DNA of 64,000 bases, taken from Terriglobia bacterium (GTDB taxonomy: Bacteria > Acidobacteriota > Terriglobia > Terriglobales > Acidobacteriaceae). The notes under the pieces are model-generated. The model did not search any database and had not been told where the DNA came from. It was given only the letters and a program-made list of their open reading frames with translations. A program made the translations under genes and the position numbers. The stretch is from assembly GCA_020073165.1 (NCBI GenBank), contig JAIQFP010000016.1:1-64000 (forward strand), written 5' to 3'. Numbering within the stretch: the stretch's first letter is position 1; every line of letters starts with the position of its first letter. Of the stretch, positions 28,247-47,342 are shown piece by piece.

Positions 28247-29947
28247 ATGGGCAACCCGGCTTCCTACGAGGAACTTTCGGCAAACTTCGACTGGTCAGTG
28301 GCTGAACGTGAGTTGGGCTATCGCCAAGGCGGCCCGATCAACATTGGTTGGATGTGCAGCGACCGCCTTTGCCACCTGGGCTTGGCCAACAAACTGGCGT
28401 TGCATTGGGAAGACTACCAGGGCAACCAGAAGCGATTCACCTTTGATGACCTGCGCGTTCTGTCCAACACCATAGCCCACTTCCTTGGCGAGCTCGGCAT
28501 CCAGCCCGGCGAACGCGTGTGTCTGTTCATGGATCGGGTACCCGAGTTGTACATCGGGTTCCTGGGCGTCCTGAAGACGGGCGCGGTAGCCCAGCCGCTG
28601 TTTTCCGCCTTTGGGGACGAGTCGTTGTTCGTGCGCCTACAGAACGCCAACACCTCGGCGATCATCACCCAGAAGAAACATCTCCCCAAAGTTCGCAAGA
28701 TTCGCGAACAACTGCCGAACCTGCGCCACATCATTGTGGTGGATGTAGGTGAATCTGCGCTGCAGCCGCGCGAAGTGTCTTTCCACATGGACCAGGCACC
28801 CCGCATCGAAGATTTTGCCGTCTATCCCACCACTGCCGAGTCGCCGTCGGTTCTGCATTACACTTCCGGCACCACCGGCCAGCCCAAGGGGGCGCAGCAC
28901 GTTCACTATTCGATCGTAGCGCAGTACCTCACCGCCAAGTGGGTGCTGGACCTTCGGCCCGATGACATCTACTGGTGCAACGCCGATCCCGGCTGGGTCA
29001 CGGGCACTTCGTACGGCATCATTGGCCCCTGGTCGAACGGCATTACCCAGGTGGTGTTCGATTCCGGCTTCAACGCGGAGCACTGGTACCAGTTCATGGA
29101 AAAGCACCGCGTGACCGTCTGGTATTCGGCGCCCACGGCCATCCGACTGCTCATGAAGGAGGGAACCGAGATCGTACAGCGGCACGACTTGTCCAGCCTG
29201 CGGTACCTGGCCAGCGTTGGCGAGCCACTCAACGCCGAGGCGGTCCTGTGGTCGCAGAAGGTGTTTGGCAAGCCGTTCCACGACACGTTCTGGCAGACGG
29301 AAACCGGCTGCATCGTGATCACAAATTTCCCCGGGATGCCGGTCAAGCCGGGCTCCATGGGAAAAGCGTTCCCCGGAATTACCGCGACGGCGCTGAACCC
29401 GAAAACCTATGAGCCGGTGAATCAACCAGGGATCGCGGGGCTGATCGCGCTGCGTCCGGGGTGGCCGTCGCAGATACGCGGCTACTGGAACAACGAGGCG
29501 GGTTACAAAGCGAAGTTCAAGAATGGCTGGTACCTGTGCGGCGATCGCGCCTCGATCGATGCCGATGGCTACTTCTGGTTCATGGGACGGGACGACGACG
29601 TCATCAACACCGGCGGGCACCTGGTCGGCCCGTTTGAGATCGAATCGGCTCTCCTGGGATGCCCGTCCGTGGCCGAGTCTGCCGCTGTTGCCAAGCCCGA
29701 TCCGGTCAATATGGAAGTGGTCAAGGCGTACGTGACCCTGAAGAAGGGTTTCACGCCGTCGGATGATCTCGAGCTCGAGATCATGAACCGCATCCGCAAG
29801 CGGTTATCGCCGCTGGCGATGCCACAGGAGATTGAGTTCGTGGACTCGCTGCCCAAGACCCGCAGCGGCAAGATCGTGCGCCGCATCCTGCGCTGTAAGG
29901 AGTTCCACGAGCCGGTGGGAGACCTTTCCACCATCATGGATGACTGA
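28247..29947 (+). CDS. Acetyl-CoA synthetase-like AMP-forming ligase
   Basis: A 566-residue ANL-superfamily enzyme. The ATP loop HYTSGTTGQPKGAQ, the motifs WCNADPGWVTGTSYG and DTFWQTETGC, and the C-terminal catalytic lysine region KTRSGKIVRRIL are all present. These place it near AcsA-type acetyl-CoA synthetases, which make acetyl-CoA or another short acyl-CoA through an acyl-adenylate. It would act in the cytoplasm. The next two genes are an acyl carrier protein and a KBL-type enzyme, suggesting that the activated acyl group is passed on to condensation with an amino acid. Exact substrate unknown. Confidence 0.8.
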   Translation: MGNPASYEELSANFDWSVAERELGYRQGGPINIGWMCSDRLCHLGLANKLALHWEDYQGNQKRFTFDDLRVLSNTIAHFLGELGIQPGERVCLFMDRVPELYIGFLGVLKTGAVAQPLFSAFGDESLFVRLQNANTSAIITQKKHLPKVRKIREQLPNLRHIIVVDVGESALQPREVSFHMDQAPRIEDFAVYPTTAESPSVLHYTSGTTGQPKGAQHVHYSIVAQYLTAKWVLDLRPDDIYWCNADPGWVTGTSYGIIGPWSNGITQVVFDSGFNAEHWYQFMEKHRVTVWYSAPTAIRLLMKEGTEIVQRHDLSSLRYLASVGEPLNAEAVLWSQKVFGKPFHDTFWQTETGCIVITNFPGMPVKPGSMGKAFPGITATALNPKTYEPVNQPGIAGLIALRPGWPSQIRGYWNNEAGYKAKFKNGWYLCGDRASIDADGYFWFMGRDDDVINTGGHLVGPFEIESALLGCPSVAESAAVAKPDPVNMEVVKAYVTLKKGFTPSDDLELEIMNRIRKRLSPLAMPQEIEFVDSLPKTRSGKIVRRILRCKEFHEPVGDLSTIMDD

Positions 29948-29973
29948 AGATCGACTAGAAAGGGAGAGCGACC

Positions 29974-30237
29974 ATGGACGACATCACCAAAGTAGTTCTT
30001 GCCTACGTGACCCGGGAATACCTGGAGGACGGGGACGAACGGACGATCACCGAGACCACGCCGCTGATCTCGGGCGGGATCGTGGATTCCTTCTCCATGG
30101 TGTCTCTCCTGCGGTTCCTGGAGAAGAAGTATTCGATCCACATTCCTGACGAAGCCGCCACGCCGGACGCCTTCGATACCGTGGAGCGCATCACAGCGCT
30201 GGTGCGGCGGTTCCAGAAAGTGGAGACCAGCGTTTAG
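29974..30237 (+). CDS. Acyl carrier protein
   Basis: An 87-residue protein with the attachment motif GGIVDSFSMVSLLRFLE, in which the Ser after Asp would carry phosphopantetheine, and a four-helix composition. It is not the usual fatty-acid ACP (no DSLDTVEL) and resembles stand-alone carriers of small pathways. The start at ATG 29974 follows GGGAG. It sits 26 bases after the acyl-activating enzyme and 74 before the KBL-type gene, so it may carry the acyl group between them. Confidence 0.8.
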   Translation: MDDITKVVLAYVTREYLEDGDERTITETTPLISGGIVDSFSMVSLLRFLEKKYSIHIPDEAATPDAFDTVERITALVRRFQKVETSV

Positions 30238-30251
30238 AACGTGCTCGGCGC

Positions 30252-30275
30252 CGCCCGCCTTTCGTGGGGCGGGCG
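30252..30275 (+). promoter_or_regulatory. GC-rich hairpin between the ACP and KBL genes
   Basis: CGCCCGCC and GGCGGGCG form a perfect 8-base stem around an 8-base loop. No T run follows, so it is more likely a transcript-stabilising, processing or weak attenuating element than a full terminator. Confidence 0.4.
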
Positions 30276-30311
30276 CTGCACTAATTCGAATTTCATCACG
30301 CGAGGAACATC

Positions 30312-31571
30312 ATGGCCTTTTCCAATGCAGTTCGCAACGGCTATCAAACCGAGATCGAGGGAATCAAAGCCGCCGGCCTGTTCAAGGGCGAGCGGTATAT
30401 CCATTCCCCCCAGGGGTCGGAGATTCAGGTGGAGTTTCCGGTCGGCTCCGAAATCAGGAAGTGCATCAACATTTGCGCCAACAACTACCTGGGGCTCTCC
30501 AGCCATCCTGAGGTCATCGCCGCGGCGCACGCCGGGTTGGACAACCGTGGCTACGGCATGTCATCGGTGCGCTTCATCTGTGGGACGCAGGATATTCACC
30601 GCGAGCTTGAGAACCGGCTGACCGAATTTCTCGGGACCGAGGATACCCTCCTGTTTCCTTCCTGTATGGACGCCAACGCCGGCTTTTTCGAAGCCTGCCT
30701 GACCGAGCGGGATGTGATGATCGCCGACCGGCTGGTGCATGCCTCCATCGTGGACGGGATGCGCCTGTGCAAAGCGATGCAGGATACGTTCAAGCACTCC
30801 GACATGGGCCACCTGGAGGAGAAGCTGCAAGAGCACCAGGACAAGCGCTATCGGATGATCATCACCGACGGCGTGTTTTCGATGGACGGCGACATGGCCA
30901 AGCTCGACCAGATTGTGAGCCTGGCCGAAAAGTACAACGCCATGGTGTTTTTGGACGACTCGCACGCCACCGGCTTCATCGGCCGCACTGGGCGCGGCAC
31001 CCAAGAACATTGCGGTGTCTTGGGACGGATTGACGTGATCACCACTACGCTGGGGAAAGCGCTGGGCGGCGCTTCCGGCGGGTGCGTGAGCGGGCGTCGT
31101 GAGCTGGTGGAGATGTGCCGCCAGCGGGCGCGTCCGTTCCTTTTCTCCAACTCGGTGGCCCCGGTGATTGTGGCAGGTGCGCTCAAGGTCATGGACCTGA
31201 TCACCGCCAGCACCGGCCGCCGCGACAAGCTGGAGTGGAACGCCAGGTACTGGCGTGGCCTGCTGAAGGATGCCGGCTTCGACATCAAGGAAGGCGACAC
31301 CCCGATCGTGCCGGTCATGCTGTACGACGCCAAGCTAGCGCAAGACTTCGCCCGCGACCTGTTTGACGAGGGCGTTTATGCGGTCGGCTTCTTTTTCCCG
31401 GTGGTGCCCAAGGGCCAAGCCCGCATTCGCACGCAACTGTCGGCGGCCCACGAGAAGCATCATCTGGACACCGCGATTGCGGCCTTCAAGAAGGTTGGCC
31501 AGAAGCACGGCATCCTGGGATTGGGGAAGAAGGAACTCATCGCAAAGTACGAGATGGAATTGGTGAGGTAG
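30312..31571 (+). CDS. kbl: KBL-type alpha-oxoamine synthase (glycine C-acetyltransferase-like)
   Basis: A 419-residue PLP enzyme closely resembling 2-amino-3-ketobutyrate CoA ligase. Visible landmarks are NICANNYLGLSSHP, RFICGTQDIHRELE, the aspartate region FLDDSHATGFIGRTGRG, the PLP lysine in TTLGKALGGASGG and the C-terminal FFFPVVPKGQARIRTQ. KBL condenses glycine with acetyl-CoA. The usual partner, threonine dehydrogenase, is not adjacent; instead an acetyl-CoA-synthetase-like enzyme and an ACP precede it. It may therefore use an acyl-ACP, or the group may be an acetate- and glycine-using branch. The fold is certain, the substrate is not. Confidence 0.85.
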   Translation: MAFSNAVRNGYQTEIEGIKAAGLFKGERYIHSPQGSEIQVEFPVGSEIRKCINICANNYLGLSSHPEVIAAAHAGLDNRGYGMSSVRFICGTQDIHRELENRLTEFLGTEDTLLFPSCMDANAGFFEACLTERDVMIADRLVHASIVDGMRLCKAMQDTFKHSDMGHLEEKLQEHQDKRYRMIITDGVFSMDGDMAKLDQIVSLAEKYNAMVFLDDSHATGFIGRTGRGTQEHCGVLGRIDVITTTLGKALGGASGGCVSGRRELVEMCRQRARPFLFSNSVAPVIVAGALKVMDLITASTGRRDKLEWNARYWRGLLKDAGFDIKEGDTPIVPVMLYDAKLAQDFARDLFDEGVYAVGFFFPVVPKGQARIRTQLSAAHEKHHLDTAIAAFKKVGQKHGILGLGKKELIAKYEMELVR

Positions 31572-33265: not shown

Positions 33266-34831
33266 ATGGCAGTTCTGGAAGAGGTGACACCGCACCACAA
33301 AATCGATGTGAAACTGGTGCTGGATGGCCATTCGCTGAGTATTGAGGACGTCCGGGACCTTGCCCGACATCACAGGCCTATCGAACTCCACCCCGATGCC
33401 GTCGCTCGCATCAACAAGTGCCGTGGCCTGCTGGAGCGCAAGATCAAGGCGCGAGAAATTATGTACGGCGTCAATACCGGCATAGGTGAACTTTCTGAAG
33501 TCGTGCTCACCCCGGAGCAGGCCGAGAAGTTTCAGAGATACCTGCTTTACTCCCACGCCGCGGGCTGCGGAGAAGCCTGCAGCGAAGAGGATGTCCGGGC
33601 AGGGATGCTCTCCCGCCTTAACACCCATTGCTGGGGCCATTCCGGGATAAGGCTCGAAATCGTCCAGACGCAAATCGAGATGCTCAATCGCGGTATCACC
33701 CCGGTGGTGTGCCAGAAGGGTTCGGTGGGGGCGTGCGGCGATCTGTCGCCCATGGCCCAGATGGCAATTACCCTCATGGGTGAGGGCGAGGTGTTCTACA
33801 AGGGAAGAAGGCTGCCTGCCAAGCAAGGCATGGTGGAGGCTGGGATTCCCACCGTAGCTTTCCGCGAGAGGGACGGGCTGGCCACCATCAACGGATCGGA
33901 TCTCATCACCGGGATGGGCTGCCTCGAACTGTGTGACGCTGAAAGGTGGATCAGGACCCAGGAAGTGGCATTGGCAATGACGCTCGAGGCGCTCAACGCC
34001 AACATGAAAGCGTACGATCACCGGATCCACCTGGTGCGGGGCTATCCGGGCGCACAGGAATGTGCTGAAAACGTGCGCCGGCTGACCGAGGGCTCGGAAC
34101 TTCTCAACCGGCCGGGGAAGAAAGTGCAGGATGCCTACTCTCTGCGCTCCAGCCCGCAGGTCATCGGCGCCGCGCGAGATGCCTGCAAGTGGGTCCGGCA
34201 AATGCTGGAGACCGAACTGAACCACGCCGCCGACAATCCCATTTTCTTTCCGGACGAAGACCTGGTGCTGACCGGGGCGAATTTCCAGGGAACGCCGATG
34301 GCGTTTGCCCTGGAGTTACTCGGCATGTCGCTGACGACCGTCGCAGTCCTCAGCGAGCGCAGGCTCAACCGGCTGATGAACCCCCACCTGTCGGCGGGTC
34401 TGCCCGCGTTCTTGACCAAGGGTGCCGGAATGTTCTCCGGGCTGATGCTGTCGCAATACACCGCAGGAGCGTTGGTCTGCGAGAACCGGGTGCTCAGCAA
34501 TCCTGCGGCCACTGGATCCATCCCGGCAGCGGCCGACCAGGAAGACTTCGTATCCATGGGCATGACCACTGCCATCAAGACCCGACAGATCATCGAGAAT
34601 TGCTGGCATGTCGTCGCCATCGAACTGATGGCGGCTGCCCAGGCCTTCGACTTGCGGGCGCCAATCAGGCCCTCGCCTGCCACAGAGGCCGCCCATCAGT
34701 CCATCCGTAAGCATGTGAGCAAACTGGAGGAAGACCGGCCCCTGCACGACGACATCAACAAACTTGCCAGTCTTGCCAAGGCGGGAGAAATCCTGGAGGC
34801 CGCTGAGAAGATCGCCGGAAAACTCAAGTGA
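33266..34831 (+). CDS. Histidine ammonia-lyase-like enzyme with an Ala-Cys-Gly cofactor motif
   Basis: A 521-residue aromatic amino acid lyase. YGVNTGIGELSEV holds the catalytic Tyr region, LLYSHAAGCG the Ser-His selectivity pair typical of histidine lyases, QDAYSLRSSPQV the second Tyr loop, and VVAIELMAAAQ the Glu seen in histidine enzymes. The cofactor MIO normally forms from Ala-Ser-Gly; here residues 156-158 read Ala-Cys-Gly (VGACGDLSPM), confirmed in the DNA as GCG TGC GGC. In Pseudomonas HutH a Ser-to-Cys change is known to be tolerated, so the enzyme may be active. No other hut genes are adjacent. It could be a lyase or an aminomutase on His or a related residue. Confidence 0.8.
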   Translation: MAVLEEVTPHHKIDVKLVLDGHSLSIEDVRDLARHHRPIELHPDAVARINKCRGLLERKIKAREIMYGVNTGIGELSEVVLTPEQAEKFQRYLLYSHAAGCGEACSEEDVRAGMLSRLNTHCWGHSGIRLEIVQTQIEMLNRGITPVVCQKGSVGACGDLSPMAQMAITLMGEGEVFYKGRRLPAKQGMVEAGIPTVAFRERDGLATINGSDLITGMGCLELCDAERWIRTQEVALAMTLEALNANMKAYDHRIHLVRGYPGAQECAENVRRLTEGSELLNRPGKKVQDAYSLRSSPQVIGAARDACKWVRQMLETELNHAADNPIFFPDEDLVLTGANFQGTPMAFALELLGMSLTTVAVLSERRLNRLMNPHLSAGLPAFLTKGAGMFSGLMLSQYTAGALVCENRVLSNPAATGSIPAAADQEDFVSMGMTTAIKTRQIIENCWHVVAIELMAAAQAFDLRAPIRPSPATEAAHQSIRKHVSKLEEDRPLHDDINKLASLAKAGEILEAAEKIAGKLK

Positions 34832-34926: not shown

Positions 34927-35877
34927 TCACAGCAGCTGGACGAACCCTGCGGAATCGTGATCGAGCCGGTGGAGCCCGGCGGCGTGGAATGCGTCGATGG
35001 CTTGGTGGAATTCGCGGACGGTGATACAGCGGTCGATCTCGGGATAGGCCGTTGCGGTGACGCGGCCGGCGGGGTGGTATTGCGCCATCAGGTTGACGTA
35101 GGTTTCGGGCCCCAGTTCGCGGGCAATCCACTGCATAATTTCCGGCGTTCCCGCGACCCCGCCGGGCATCACCAGGTGGCGCAAGAGAACGCCTCGCAAC
35201 GCTACGCCATGTTCATCGGTGACGAGCGGGCCGACCTGCCGGTGCATCTCAAGGATAGCGCGCCGGGCGGCTTCGGGATAATCGGGGGCTTTGGCATAGC
35301 GCCGCGCCTTTTCAGGGTCCCAGAACTTGAAGTCGGGCATGTAGATGTCCACGACGCCATCCATCAGCAGCAGTGAATCCAGCGAGTCGTAGGCGCTGGT
35401 GTTGTACACGAGAGGCAGAGTCAGGCCGCGCTCCACGGCCAGCAGCAGCGCCTCCAGAATCTGCGGCACCACATGCTCCGGCGTCACCAGGTTGATGTTG
35501 TGGCAGCCCTGATGCTGCAAGCGCAACATCATCTCCGCCAGTTCTTCCGGTTTGGTGGTGCGGCCTTCTCCAAACCAACTGATCTGGTAGTTCTGGCAAA
35601 AGACGCAACGCAGGTTGCACCAACTGAAGAAGATGGTCCCGGAGCCACGGCTGCCTCGCAGGCAGGGCTCTTCACCGAGATGAGCAAAATAGCTGCTGAC
35701 GCTGGCATACCGCCCGGTCTTGCAGACTTTCGTCTTGTCTTCAAGACGGTTGACCTGGCAGTTGCGTGGACACAGGGTACAGGCGGCCAGCTTGTTCAGG
35801 CCCAACTCCACCCGGCGTAGCAACTCTCCCGAACGCCACAGCTCGAGATAGGCGGGCTGGGAGCGCCTGTGCTCCAT
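34927..35877 (-). CDS. Radical SAM protein of the PflA/PflX-like group
   Basis: A 316-residue protein. The radical SAM motif WCNLRCVFCQNYQIS gives the three cluster cysteines, and an extra N-terminal motif CTLCPRNCQVNR, seen in the PflX-like family, precedes it. It should cleave SAM with a [4Fe-4S] cluster; the target of this family is unknown. I start at ATG 35877, which overlaps the stop of the membrane-protein gene upstream (TGATG). The longer upstream frame is rejected. It is the last gene of a short reverse-strand operon containing a Flp-type pilin. Confidence 0.8.
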   Translation of the reverse strand: MEHRRSQPAYLELWRSGELLRRVELGLNKLAACTLCPRNCQVNRLEDKTKVCKTGRYASVSSYFAHLGEEPCLRGSRGSGTIFFSWCNLRCVFCQNYQISWFGEGRTTKPEELAEMMLRLQHQGCHNINLVTPEHVVPQILEALLLAVERGLTLPLVYNTSAYDSLDSLLLMDGVVDIYMPDFKFWDPEKARRYAKAPDYPEAARRAILEMHRQVGPLVTDEHGVALRGVLLRHLVMPGGVAGTPEIMQWIARELGPETYVNLMAQYHPAGRVTATAYPEIDRCITVREFHQAIDAFHAAGLHRLDHDSAGFVQLL

Positions 35878-36272
35878 CAGCGCCCCAGTGCTGCGGAGGT
35901 CAGAGACCGGCAAGCCACACGCACCAGCATCCAGAGTATGTAGTAGAAAACCGTCAGTACAAGCACAACGACCGTGCGTCCGAAGACCGAGAGAGTCTCT
36001 CCGAGAACCCGCGACGGTAGATCGAGGACATAGGTAGCCAGCAATCCAGCTATCAATCCCAGGACCGCTCCCCAAAACGGCAAGCGTTGCGGCACCCACG
36101 CCGCGGGCGCAAGCAGCGCCCAGACACCCCATGCCAGGGGTGCCATACACCAGATGATCGTCAGTGGATAGATCCTTTCGAAGGTCAGGCCGGGTGTAAG
36201 GACCGCGACTAGCGCCCCCAAAGCGATGGCAATCGAAGCAATCGTGCTACCGGCCGCGAATCGCGCAAACAT
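35877..36272 (-). CDS. Small multi-helix membrane protein
   Basis: A 131-residue protein with four hydrophobic helices (STIASIAIALGALVAVLT, LTIIWCMAPLAWGVWALL, GAVLGLIAGLLATYVL, VVVLVLTVFYYILWMLV). An AAGGAGG site seven bases before ATG 36272 decides the start; the ATG at 36293 has none. No family is recognised. The gene lies between a Flp-type pilin and a radical SAM gene and overlaps the latter by one base. Confidence 0.6.
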   Translation of the reverse strand: MFARFAAGSTIASIAIALGALVAVLTPGLTFERIYPLTIIWCMAPLAWGVWALLAPAAWVPQRLPFWGAVLGLIAGLLATYVLDLPSRVLGETLSVFGRTVVVLVLTVFYYILWMLVRVACRSLTSAALGR

Positions 36273-39671: not shown

Positions 39672-39868
39672 GAATGACACGGGCGGCGCCTGGATGGTCG
39701 CGACCTTGCAGGCGCAAACTCGGAAATAGAAGCGCCCGTTTCATTTTGGGAATGGGAGCAACGATTTCTTCGCAGGCTGTCGAAAATGCATAGTGTCGGT
39801 GGTGCTAGCCTCAATAATTGCAGTTACCTTTCAGCTTCCGATCTTCACAATCGGTAAAAGGAGGAACC

Positions 39869-40759
39869 ATGCTCGGAAGAGCGAACCCTAGAGGAATCTC
39901 CCTGCACATCGGGCTAAACCAGGTTGACCCCACTCATTATGCTGGCTGGAAAGGGGAACTGGTAGCCTGCGAAAACGATGCCCGCGACATAGAGGCAATT
40001 GCCATGGCCCAGGGCTTCGCAACCAAGTCACTGCTCACCAAAGCTGCCACCTCCACCGCCGTGCTGGATGTGATCGACAAGGCGACGAGAGAACTGGCGG
40101 AAGACGACTTTTTCCTGCTGACGTATTCCGGCCACGGCGGGCAAATCAATGATGTTGACGATGAAGAGCCTGACGGCTTGGATGAAACCTGGGTGTTGTA
40201 TGACCGCCAGCTTGTCGACGATGAGCTGTACGCCATATGGTCCCATTTCCGGCCAGGCGTGCGTATCTTTGTCTTGTCTGATAGCTGCCACAGCGGCACC
40301 ATGACAAAAGCTATGTTCCTCAACCCCACACTGTATGTCCCGCATCTGGAGTCGCGCGTGCGCGCCAGTGCGGCCGCCAACCTGAGACCGAAGTTTCTGC
40401 CCCCGGAGGTACAGGCCAGGATCTATAAGGAGCGGGCAGTACTGTACGACGACATTCGGAAGAAGACTCCCCGTAGGGAGAAGGTCAACGTAGAGTGCAG
40501 TGTCATTTTGATCTCTGCCTGCCAGGACAACCAGGTGGCCATGGATGGAAACAAGAACGGACTGTTCACCGAGAACTTGCTGAGAGCCTGGAACAGGGGC
40601 AATTTCACTGGTGGCTACCATCACTTCCGCAACGAACTCGCTGGGCTCATGCCGCCGACCCAGAGCCCGAAGTACACCATGGTGGGCCATCGCGAGCGCG
40701 CTTTCGAGCGCCAGAGGCCCTTCACCATCACGGTGCCGCGCGTTGCCGTGGCAGCCTGA
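39869..40759 (+). CDS. Caspase-like peptidase (clan CD, metacaspase type)
   Basis: A 296-residue protein consisting only of a caspase domain. The catalytic His is in FLLTYSGHGGQIND (His89) and the Cys in FVLSDSCHSGTMTK (Cys140), both intact. Bacterial relatives cut after basic residues and often sit next to sensors, effectors or toxins, but here there is no attached domain and no clear partner gene. A GGAGG six bases before ATG 39869 decides the start. A strong terminator follows, so it is probably transcribed alone. Confidence 0.85.
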   Translation: MLGRANPRGISLHIGLNQVDPTHYAGWKGELVACENDARDIEAIAMAQGFATKSLLTKAATSTAVLDVIDKATRELAEDDFFLLTYSGHGGQINDVDDEEPDGLDETWVLYDRQLVDDELYAIWSHFRPGVRIFVLSDSCHSGTMTKAMFLNPTLYVPHLESRVRASAAANLRPKFLPPEVQARIYKERAVLYDDIRKKTPRREKVNVECSVILISACQDNQVAMDGNKNGLFTENLLRAWNRGNFTGGYHHFRNELAGLMPPTQSPKYTMVGHRERAFERQRPFTITVPRVAVAA

Positions 40760-45764: not shown

Positions 45765-47342
45765 ATGCGGATTCGGCTGATTTCCGCTCTTATTGTCTTG
45801 CTGGCGATGTCGGCGACTTCGCAACGCCTGGCCGCTGCATCCGCAGACGAGATCCGACAACCCGCCGTAGCCGGGTCCTTCTATCCTCAGGATCCGAAGG
45901 AACTAGCGGCTGCAGTGGATGGGATGATCGCTCGTGCGGCTGTCCCGGCGACCCAGGATCACATCGTTGCCCTGATTGCCCCGCATGCCGGGTACCCCTA
46001 CTCGGGCGCGGTCGCGGCGCATAGTTACGCGTTACTCAAGGGACTGAAGATCCATCGAGTGGTGGTGATTGCTCCCTCTCACTTTGAGGAATTTCCCTTT
46101 GCCTCGGTCTATGACGGAGACGCGTATGCGACTCCTCTGGGCAAAGTACCGGTGGACAAAGTGTTTGCCCGCAAACTCGCCAGCATGAGTCCGCTGATCA
46201 AGCTCTCCAGCCGTGGACACGCACCTTCCGAAGGCCAGGCGGAACACTCCCTCGAAGTGGAACTTCCGTTCTTGCAGCGGACCCTGTCGGATTTTGAAGT
46301 CGTGCCCATAGTGATGGGCGAACAGACTTATGAAGCCAGCCGCGCTCTTGGCGTCGCGCTCGCCACGTTGATTCAGGGATCGGATACCCTGATCGTGGCC
46401 AGTTCCGATCTCTCCCACTATCACCCCTACGACGAAGCCTCTACGCTCGACCACAAGACCCTGAACGCCATCAGTGAGTGGGATTATCTGACTCTTTCTC
46501 GCAATTTCCAGATGCGCATCTGGGAAGCCTGCGGCGGAGCGCCGATCGTGGCGGCGATGATCGCAGCTGAGCGCCTGGGAGCTACGCGCGCCAACGTGCT
46601 CAAGTATGCGAACACCGGGGACGTAACTGGTGACCGCAGCCGTGTGGTGGGTTACGGCGCGGTGGCGCTGCTGCAAACCGCCAACCAGAGTGCCGTCGAG
46701 CAGCCGCGCTTCTCTCTGAGCCGGGCGGAGAAGCAACGCTTGCTGGACATCGCCCGGAGAGCCGTAGAGACAGCGGTCAAGGAAAACAAGGCGATTGAAC
46801 TTCCAGCCGATTTGTCCGAGCCCCTGAAGCAAGACCGGGGAGCCTTTGTGACCATCCGCAAGAACGGAGAACTCCGCGGTTGCGTCGGCTACACCGGTTC
46901 GATCAAACCCCTGGCGCTGACCGTGCGGGATGTGGCTATCCTGGCCGCTCTGCGGGATACGCGGTTCCCGCCGGTTACGGCCGGGGAACTGCCGCAGCTG
47001 AAATACGAGGTCTCGGTGCTCTCGCCGCTTCGCCGCATCCTTGATACCAAGCAGATACACGTCGGAGAGCACGGACTGCTCATGAAGAATGGCCCCAACG
47101 AGGGGATCCTTCTTCCCCAGGTCGCAAGTGACGAAGGGTGGGATCGAAAAACATTTCTGGAGCAAACCGCCGTGAAGGCCGGCCTTCCCGCGAATGCCTG
47201 GAGAGACAAGGACACCGACATCTTCTTCTTTACTGCGCTGGTCTTCGGCGAACCCGCAGCGCCAGCCGTCACTCCTGAGGAGCCGCTCCCTCAAAAGCCA
47301 CCCAGGCCAGGAGACCGGGTGCCAGGTTTACCGCCCCGATGA
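45765..47342 (+). CDS. Memo-AMMECR1 fusion protein of the AmmeMemoRadiSam system
   Basis: A 525-residue protein. Residues 1-25 look like a signal peptide (LISALIVLLAMSATSQRLAA). The Memo domain (about 30-300) has AVAGSFYPQDPKEL, LIAPHAGYPYSGAVAAHSYA and SSDLSHYHPYDEA, the conserved His-containing site. The AMMECR1 domain (about 315-490) has GAFVTIRKNGELRGCVGYTG. The fusion of both partners next to the radical SAM gene is the known AmmeMemoRadiSam arrangement of unknown function. The 3' end overlaps the convergent spermidine-synthase-like gene by 74 bases. Confidence 0.85.
   Translation: MRIRLISALIVLLAMSATSQRLAAASADEIRQPAVAGSFYPQDPKELAAAVDGMIARAAVPATQDHIVALIAPHAGYPYSGAVAAHSYALLKGLKIHRVVVIAPSHFEEFPFASVYDGDAYATPLGKVPVDKVFARKLASMSPLIKLSSRGHAPSEGQAEHSLEVELPFLQRTLSDFEVVPIVMGEQTYEASRALGVALATLIQGSDTLIVASSDLSHYHPYDEASTLDHKTLNAISEWDYLTLSRNFQMRIWEACGGAPIVAAMIAAERLGATRANVLKYANTGDVTGDRSRVVGYGAVALLQTANQSAVEQPRFSLSRAEKQRLLDIARRAVETAVKENKAIELPADLSEPLKQDRGAFVTIRKNGELRGCVGYTGSIKPLALTVRDVAILAALRDTRFPPVTAGELPQLKYEVSVLSPLRRILDTKQIHVGEHGLLMKNGPNEGILLPQVASDEGWDRKTFLEQTAVKAGLPANAWRDKDTDIFFFTALVFGEPAAPAVTPEEPLPQKPPRPGDRVPGLPPR

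Follow-up and report, generated by a model that had tools for sequence, protein, structure and literature searches.

The lyase gene at positions 33,266 to 34,831 of the window (the whole stretch of 64,000 nucleotides analysed here, from a Terriglobia bacterium) probably encodes a histidine ammonia-lyase belonging to a separate and widespread sister group of HutH, in which the methylidene-imidazolone (MIO) cofactor would derive from Ala-Cys-Gly (ACG) rather than from Ala-Ser-Gly (ASG). The replacement of Ser by Cys is real and yields a naturally occurring, widely distributed version of a known enzyme. Ordinary histidine degradation is the most likely function of this group, hereafter clade A, because the active-site residues of P. 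putida HutH are kept and because its genes are linked to urocanase in Acidobacteriota genomes.

The open reading frame begins with ATG on the forward strand and encodes an aromatic amino acid lyase of 521 amino acids. Its MIO tripeptide, Ala156-Cys157-Gly158, is encoded by GCG TGC GGC at positions 33,731 to 33,739 (+) in the context GSVG-ACG-DLSP; its Cys had been noticed in a sequence-only reading of this DNA, and it aligns to Ala142-Ser143-Gly144 of P. putida HutH. That reading had also likened the remainder of the active site to a histidine lyase, and the alignment bears it out: Ser96-His97 (33,551 to 33,556, +) corresponds to Ser82-His83 and Glu426 (34,541 to 34,543, +) to the catalytic Glu414. 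Tyr67, Asp159, Asn209, Gln288, Tyr291, Arg294, Phe340 and Met394 are likewise kept, and equivalents of HutH Y53, H83, N195, Q277, Y280, R283, F329 and E414 are all found. The P. putida residue numbers are those we take to apply, and they are consistent with the numbering of the P. putida HutH chain used in the alignment. The Ser/His pair is a substrate motif of histidine lyases, named as such in the accessible part of PMC11432326. One residue sets the window protein apart from its own group: Asp212 (33,899 to 33,901, +), three residues after Asn209 (P. putida Asn195), stands where 99.5% of 205 clade A members, nearest relatives included, carry Asn. Being near the MIO-contacting Asn209, it may alter activity.

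The protein matches PF00221 over the whole profile (564.5 bits for a gathering score of 27.3) and exceeds the cut-off of the histidine ammonia-lyase subfamily NF006871 (PRK09367; 566.2 bits, cut-off 524). Since its tripeptide is ACG, where Ala-Ser-Gly is the criterion for MIO enzymes, and since its 536.2 bits lie just below the cut-off of 539.15 for the TIGR01225 hutH equivalog, we placed it in PF00221 and NF006871 and not in strict HutH. Relatives fall on both sides of the TIGR01225 cut-off, with 512.7 (L212) and 511.8 (L215) below and 557.2 (L108) above it. The ACG protein of Aliidiomarina taiwanensis reaches 690.7 and thus appears, from its sequence, to be an ordinary HutH except for the Cys. 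Scores of the window protein against the profiles for tyrosine 2,3-aminomutase (TIGR03832, 405.8 with 501 required), phenylalanine aminomutase (TIGR04475, 362.3 with 800 required), and phenylalanine and tyrosine ammonia-lyases (PAL, TAL; TIGR01226, 218.9 with 519.15 required, and NF053541, 341.7 with 700 required) all fall short. An AlphaFold2 monomer model (pLDDT 88.9) found its best matches among solved structures in the histidine ammonia-lyases (HAL) of T. cruzi (6v6h) and then P. putida (1eb4), with a tyrosine aminomutase close behind both; such a monomer prediction is silent on cofactor formation.

The distribution of the Cys variant was assessed in two ways. A DNA-pattern scan for V-G-A-C-G-D-L-x-P over a species-level genome collection, in which the pattern itself requires Cys, returned at least 115 stretches, and 114 of the 115 listed were lyases. 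Among these listed matches, 101 were 51-81% identical to the window protein (clade A) and 13 were more distant (34-40%). The 101 belonged to at least 24 named phyla of bacteria and archaea, 16 of the 101 having no named phylum. Homology-only samples, in which the tripeptide was not part of the selection, were added; clade A membership was called, depending on the analysis, by a best E value of 1e-150 or better, by more than 50% identity to the window protein or by a better BLAST score. In Acidobacteriota, 81 of 396 genomes had a clade A match (72 ACG, 9 ASG), and in Bacteroidota, the phylum of the L091 genome, 17 of 198 did (14 ACG, 3 ASG). Similarly, 37 of 194 genomes from the phylum of a Poseidoniia genome had a match of at least 54% identity, of which 30 were read, giving 29 ACG and 1 ASG. 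Cys was thus present in 115 of the 128 homology-chosen members read and Ser in 13, so that the natural ACG clade which the sequence-only reading proposed to look for does exist. The first homology-chosen batch (L002-L071) had ACG at all 70 loci of 50 genomes; these genomes came mainly from the high-scoring end of the list, and the idea that Cys is invariant in clade A was dropped in view of the remaining 31 Acidobacteriota genomes, which gave 22 ACG and 9 ASG, and of the three ASG members in Bacteroidota. Among same-family genomes of the Acidobacteriota sample, only that of the window (G000) carried a clade A match, and two Sulfotelmatobacter genomes each held an ACG lyase 81-82% identical to the window protein together with a second lyase.

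A Ser-Ser-Gly tripeptide was also encountered: of 13 more distant Bacteroidota lyases (L285-L297), 11 have it, and so do lyases of two Ignavibacteriota genomes (L078, L192). The genome of Maledivibacter halophilus M1 (L157) has five PF00221 matches and that of a Desulfobacteraceae (L086) four, one in each being an ACG protein distant from clade A.

The active site is highly conserved across the clade. All 192 distinct clade A ACG proteins keep the equivalents of H83, A142, G144, D145, N195, Q277, Y280, R283, F329, M382 and E414 (P. putida numbering), and 191 keep Y53. Compared with HutH, clade A has residues of its own at strongly kept positions near the active site, namely Gln341 and Phe428 (both His in HutH), Asn212 for Gln and, in 156 of 192 proteins, Asn96 for Ser, and these substitutions could change the substrate. 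Among 11 HutH-type ACG proteins outside clade A, the Gln277 equivalent is missing in two and the Tyr280 equivalent in two, which suggests that some ACG lyases may not use histidine.

The relationships were examined in two quick trees from which the MIO columns had been omitted, one of 73 rows and one of 58 rows that included Ser members. In the former, the 16 ACG rows of clade A formed one clade (SH-aLRT 100), and 8 triplet changes were counted with fewer ASG clade A members present. In the latter, clade A again had a support of 100, and at least nine Cys/Ser changes were counted overall, at least four within clade A and four among the other rows, on a quick tree with several long rows and two long branches meeting. 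The archaeal ASG proteins L089 and L181 were sister to the ACG clade in the 73-row tree, and L089, counted as not belonging to clade A, stood beside it again in the 58-row tree. The rows nearest to the base of clade A, window included, have Cys, so that Cys seems to be the earlier of the two states in this group. ASG occurs in 13 of 205 distinct clade A proteins and is encoded by TCN in eight cases and by AGY in five, consistent with Ser having arisen more than once. Several exchanges between Cys and Ser appear to have taken place. At the threshold set, the Cys/Ser column was the sole alignment position separating the 13 ASG from the 192 ACG proteins. The sequence-only reading had considered that a Cys variant might form MIO less efficiently; the repeated exchange within one group, where nothing else tells the two sets apart at this threshold, speaks for Cys and Ser being about equally suited.

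In many genomes such lyases occur together with urocanase, though at most loci the two genes do not adjoin. No hut gene lies beside the window lyase, in agreement with the sequence-only reading; within the assembly (4.6 Mb, 35 contigs), hutU and hutI are found together on another contig (G000:C34:114534-117497) and a second lyase, a Ser-type (ASG) HutH, on a further one (G000:C23:365971-367416), so that the window copy may be redundant or specialised. Among Acidobacteriota genomes whose sole detected lyase is a clade A ACG protein, 43 of 46 have hutU and 3 do not (initially 45 of 48, two genomes being removed as ASG), a sole lyase being defined by one protein match at E 0.001 with at most three candidates scored per genome, so that a second lyase was possibly missed. 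The gene was present in 33 of 33 genomes with clade A and a further lyase match, in 222 of 233 with other lyases only and in 8 of 82 without a lyase (43/46 vs 8/82, Fisher p ~3e-22); presence meant E <1e-20, and 12 weaker matches (5e-15 to 1e-5) were scored as absent. All candidates were scored in 49 further ACG carriers, taken from the 69 clade A loci then listed with 20 omitted; 31 of them had no other PF00221 match, and 27 of these 31 had hutU and 26 hutI above the cut-off.

Direct adjacency was observed in several lineages. Clade A ACG genes and hutU are same-strand neighbours in Myxococcota (L073), archaea (L074/L215, L174), Elusimicrobia (L115, L135/L212) and Planctomycetota (L161), the order in L135/L212 being lyase, hutU, one small gene and hutI. 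In Thermoplasmatota (L110/L214) the adjacent hutU is on the opposite strand, and in WOR-3 (L213) it lies about 6 kb from the lyase. Such loci are a minority: hutU was seen at 7 of the 101 clade A pattern loci among the matches listed (each of at most 8 kb) and at none of the 39 loci from Acidobacteriota (L033-L071, 11-20 kb each). HutH-type ACG genes adjoin hutU in the cultured Aliidiomarina taiwanensis (L092), a Woeseiaceae (L132, in whose genome hutU consists of fragments below the cut-off), an Oligoflexia (L133) and a Bacteriovoracaceae (L170), that is at 4 of 13 such loci among the matches listed, each being the sole PF00221 match of its genome. A hutU match is missing in one of the two Sulfotelmatobacter genomes that hold two lyases. 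The context suggests an enzyme that behaves as an ordinary HutH, which the sequence-only reading had named among its possible refutations.

ACG and Ser-type lyases also occur in tandem (L138, L099, L100, L152, L078, L089, L329), for which pure redundancy would not account. The pairs may form mixed tetramers or use two substrates, and in genomes with two lyases the substrate may differ or be shared out between them. Tandem pairs in which the Ser-type member is ASG or SSG were recorded at L208 (8849-10372 and its neighbour), L209, L152, L100, L211, L210 and L329, in Cloacimonadota, Delongbacteria, Melioribacteraceae, a euryarchaeote and a Bacteroidota genome.

The immediate surroundings of the lyase were little conserved. 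Beyond synteny among a few loci, the 39 clade A loci of 11-20 kb shared few neighbours, as compared by homology searches, the crude calling of open reading frames having missed genes. Upstream of the lyase (28,247 to 31,571) are an acetate--CoA ligase-like gene (acs), a gene for an 87-amino-acid protein that looks carrier-like by eye and matched no Pfam or NCBIfam family, and a glycine C-acetyltransferase-like kbl. This cassette recurs near the lyase in 1 of the 39 loci (L055), L036 having a distant kbl match only, which is too little for a pathway to be built on it, and that idea was rejected. Next to the lyase is a radical SAM gene (34,927 to 36,150, -) and, 10 kb on, a fused Memo-AMMECR1 gene (45,765 to 47,342, +), presumably separated parts of an AmmeMemoRadiSam set. 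The window also encodes a caspase-domain (Peptidase_C14) protein (39,818 to 40,759), here in a bacterium.

In the proposed mechanism, the amide nitrogen of Gly158 would attack the carbonyl of Ala156 with loss of water, and the side chain of Cys157 would depart as H2S where the Ser enzyme gives off another water, so that the methylidene-imidazolone would be the same. It would then take up the amino group of L-histidine, ammonia and urocanate being released, and Glu426, Tyr67 and the remaining conserved residues would have the roles they have in HutH. That Cys gives rise to MIO with release of H2S is probable; this step and the use of histidine by the window copy are the parts that we infer, while the sequences themselves show the Cys and how widely it occurs, the intact active site, its interchange with Ser on the tree and the tie to urocanase genes. 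Counting against such an ordinary histidine lyase in the window are the score below the TIGR01225 cut-off, the absence of hut neighbours, Asp212 and the ASG HutH of the same genome, and the window copy could be redundant, weakened or specialised.

These points leave room for other readings. It is unlikely, though it deserves some weight, that the clade comprises lyases or aminomutases for another substrate, such as an aromatic amino acid or a modified histidine, its link with hut genes being a by-product of shared ancestry. The second-shell residues common to the whole of clade A would fit such a role, as would the Ser-type HutH of the window genome, the second lyase of the two Sulfotelmatobacter genomes, the tandem pairs and the lack of an adjacent hutU at all 39 Acidobacteriota loci. 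However, the Ser/Asn-His pair and Glu426 resemble those of HAL, the aminomutase, PAL and TAL scores are far below their cut-offs, many genomes combine urocanase with a clade lyase as sole detected lyase, and hutU adjoins the gene on the same strand in several lineages. On the same grounds, the suggestion of the sequence-only reading that the gene encodes a new lyase or aminomutase is not supported. A more elaborate scenario, to which we accord a small probability, takes Cys to have been the MIO precursor from early on in a clade that branches deeply, where it would have been retained because maturation by thiol elimination proceeds differently (at a higher rate, or keyed to cellular sulfide or oxygen), and Cys and Ser versions, sometimes in tandem in one genome, would divide the work; the window copy, with its Asp212 and a Ser-type HutH in the genome, may then have moved to another substrate.

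That the window gene is a horizontally acquired extra copy, non-functional or in decay, seems quite improbable: its isolation among the same-family genomes of the phylum sample, the unusual Asp212 and the Ser-type HutH would agree with decay, but the frame of 521 codons is intact with its mapped catalytic residues kept, and the two Sulfotelmatobacter genomes also hold a close ACG lyase plus a second one. Even less credible is a protein in which Cys is not turned into MIO, the thiol staying and acting as such or the enzyme being MIO-free like its structural relative ergothionase (6s7j). The residues needed for catalysis are kept, a Ser/Cys exchange accompanied by no other distinguishing change at the threshold is hardly compatible with a different chemistry, and some HutH-type ACG enzymes lie beside hutU in a plain hut order. 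As for a sequencing or assembly error, with close homologues keeping Ser, the sequence-only reading had named it as what would undo its observation; one base can separate Cys and Ser codons, but the 70 ACG loci of the first batch and the 114 lyases among the listed pattern matches refute it and leave it a negligible probability. A histidine ammonia-lyase with a Cys-derived MIO stays our preferred reading.

The natural and widespread Cys version departs from two published descriptions of the middle MIO residue as Ser alone. In its accessible part, PMC3903478 calls ASG strictly conserved and reports that changing HAL Ser143 to Ala, and making the matching change in parsley PAL, lowered activity more than 1000-fold, and the accessible part of PMC9002059 allows variation of the tripeptide in its first residue only. 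The available portion of PMC5651878 makes no mention of a Cys variant, and no paper on a natural Ala-Cys-Gly MIO ammonia-lyase was found in a literature search that had subscription journals mostly outside its coverage. Where searches are keyed to Ala-Ser-Gly, enzymes that probably degrade histidine can go unnoticed in many uncultured phyla. The natural variants also serve as ready-made mutants with which to study cofactor formation, a possible release of sulfide and the preference of some lineages for Cys.

Among known systems, the window lyase is most readily compared with HutH (P. putida 1b8f and others), with which it shares the fold, the length, the mapped catalytic residues, the Ser-His pair and the Glu and, in some of its relatives, the link to hutU, whereas it differs by its Cys at the MIO Ser, by the absence of hut neighbours, by a score just below the TIGR01225 cut-off and by its membership of a separate clade with its own second-shell residues. 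The tyrosine aminomutase of Streptomyces globisporus (2ohy) is about 36% identical, near in structure and has the His of the substrate pair, but carries Gln in alignment with the catalytic Glu, and the window protein is far below the cut-off of its profile; its tripeptide, present as a modified residue in the structure sequence, we take to be ASG. Ergothionase of Treponema denticola (6s7j), which works without MIO on a trimethylammonium substrate, has the same fold (TM 0.88) but just 30% identity to the window protein. A parallel for the Cys itself is the S143C mutant of P. putida HutH, with Cys at the same position, which Langer et al. in 1994 reportedly found to be fully active; unlike this laboratory mutant, the Cys of the window type is natural, occurs in many phyla and was exchanged with Ser several times on the tree.
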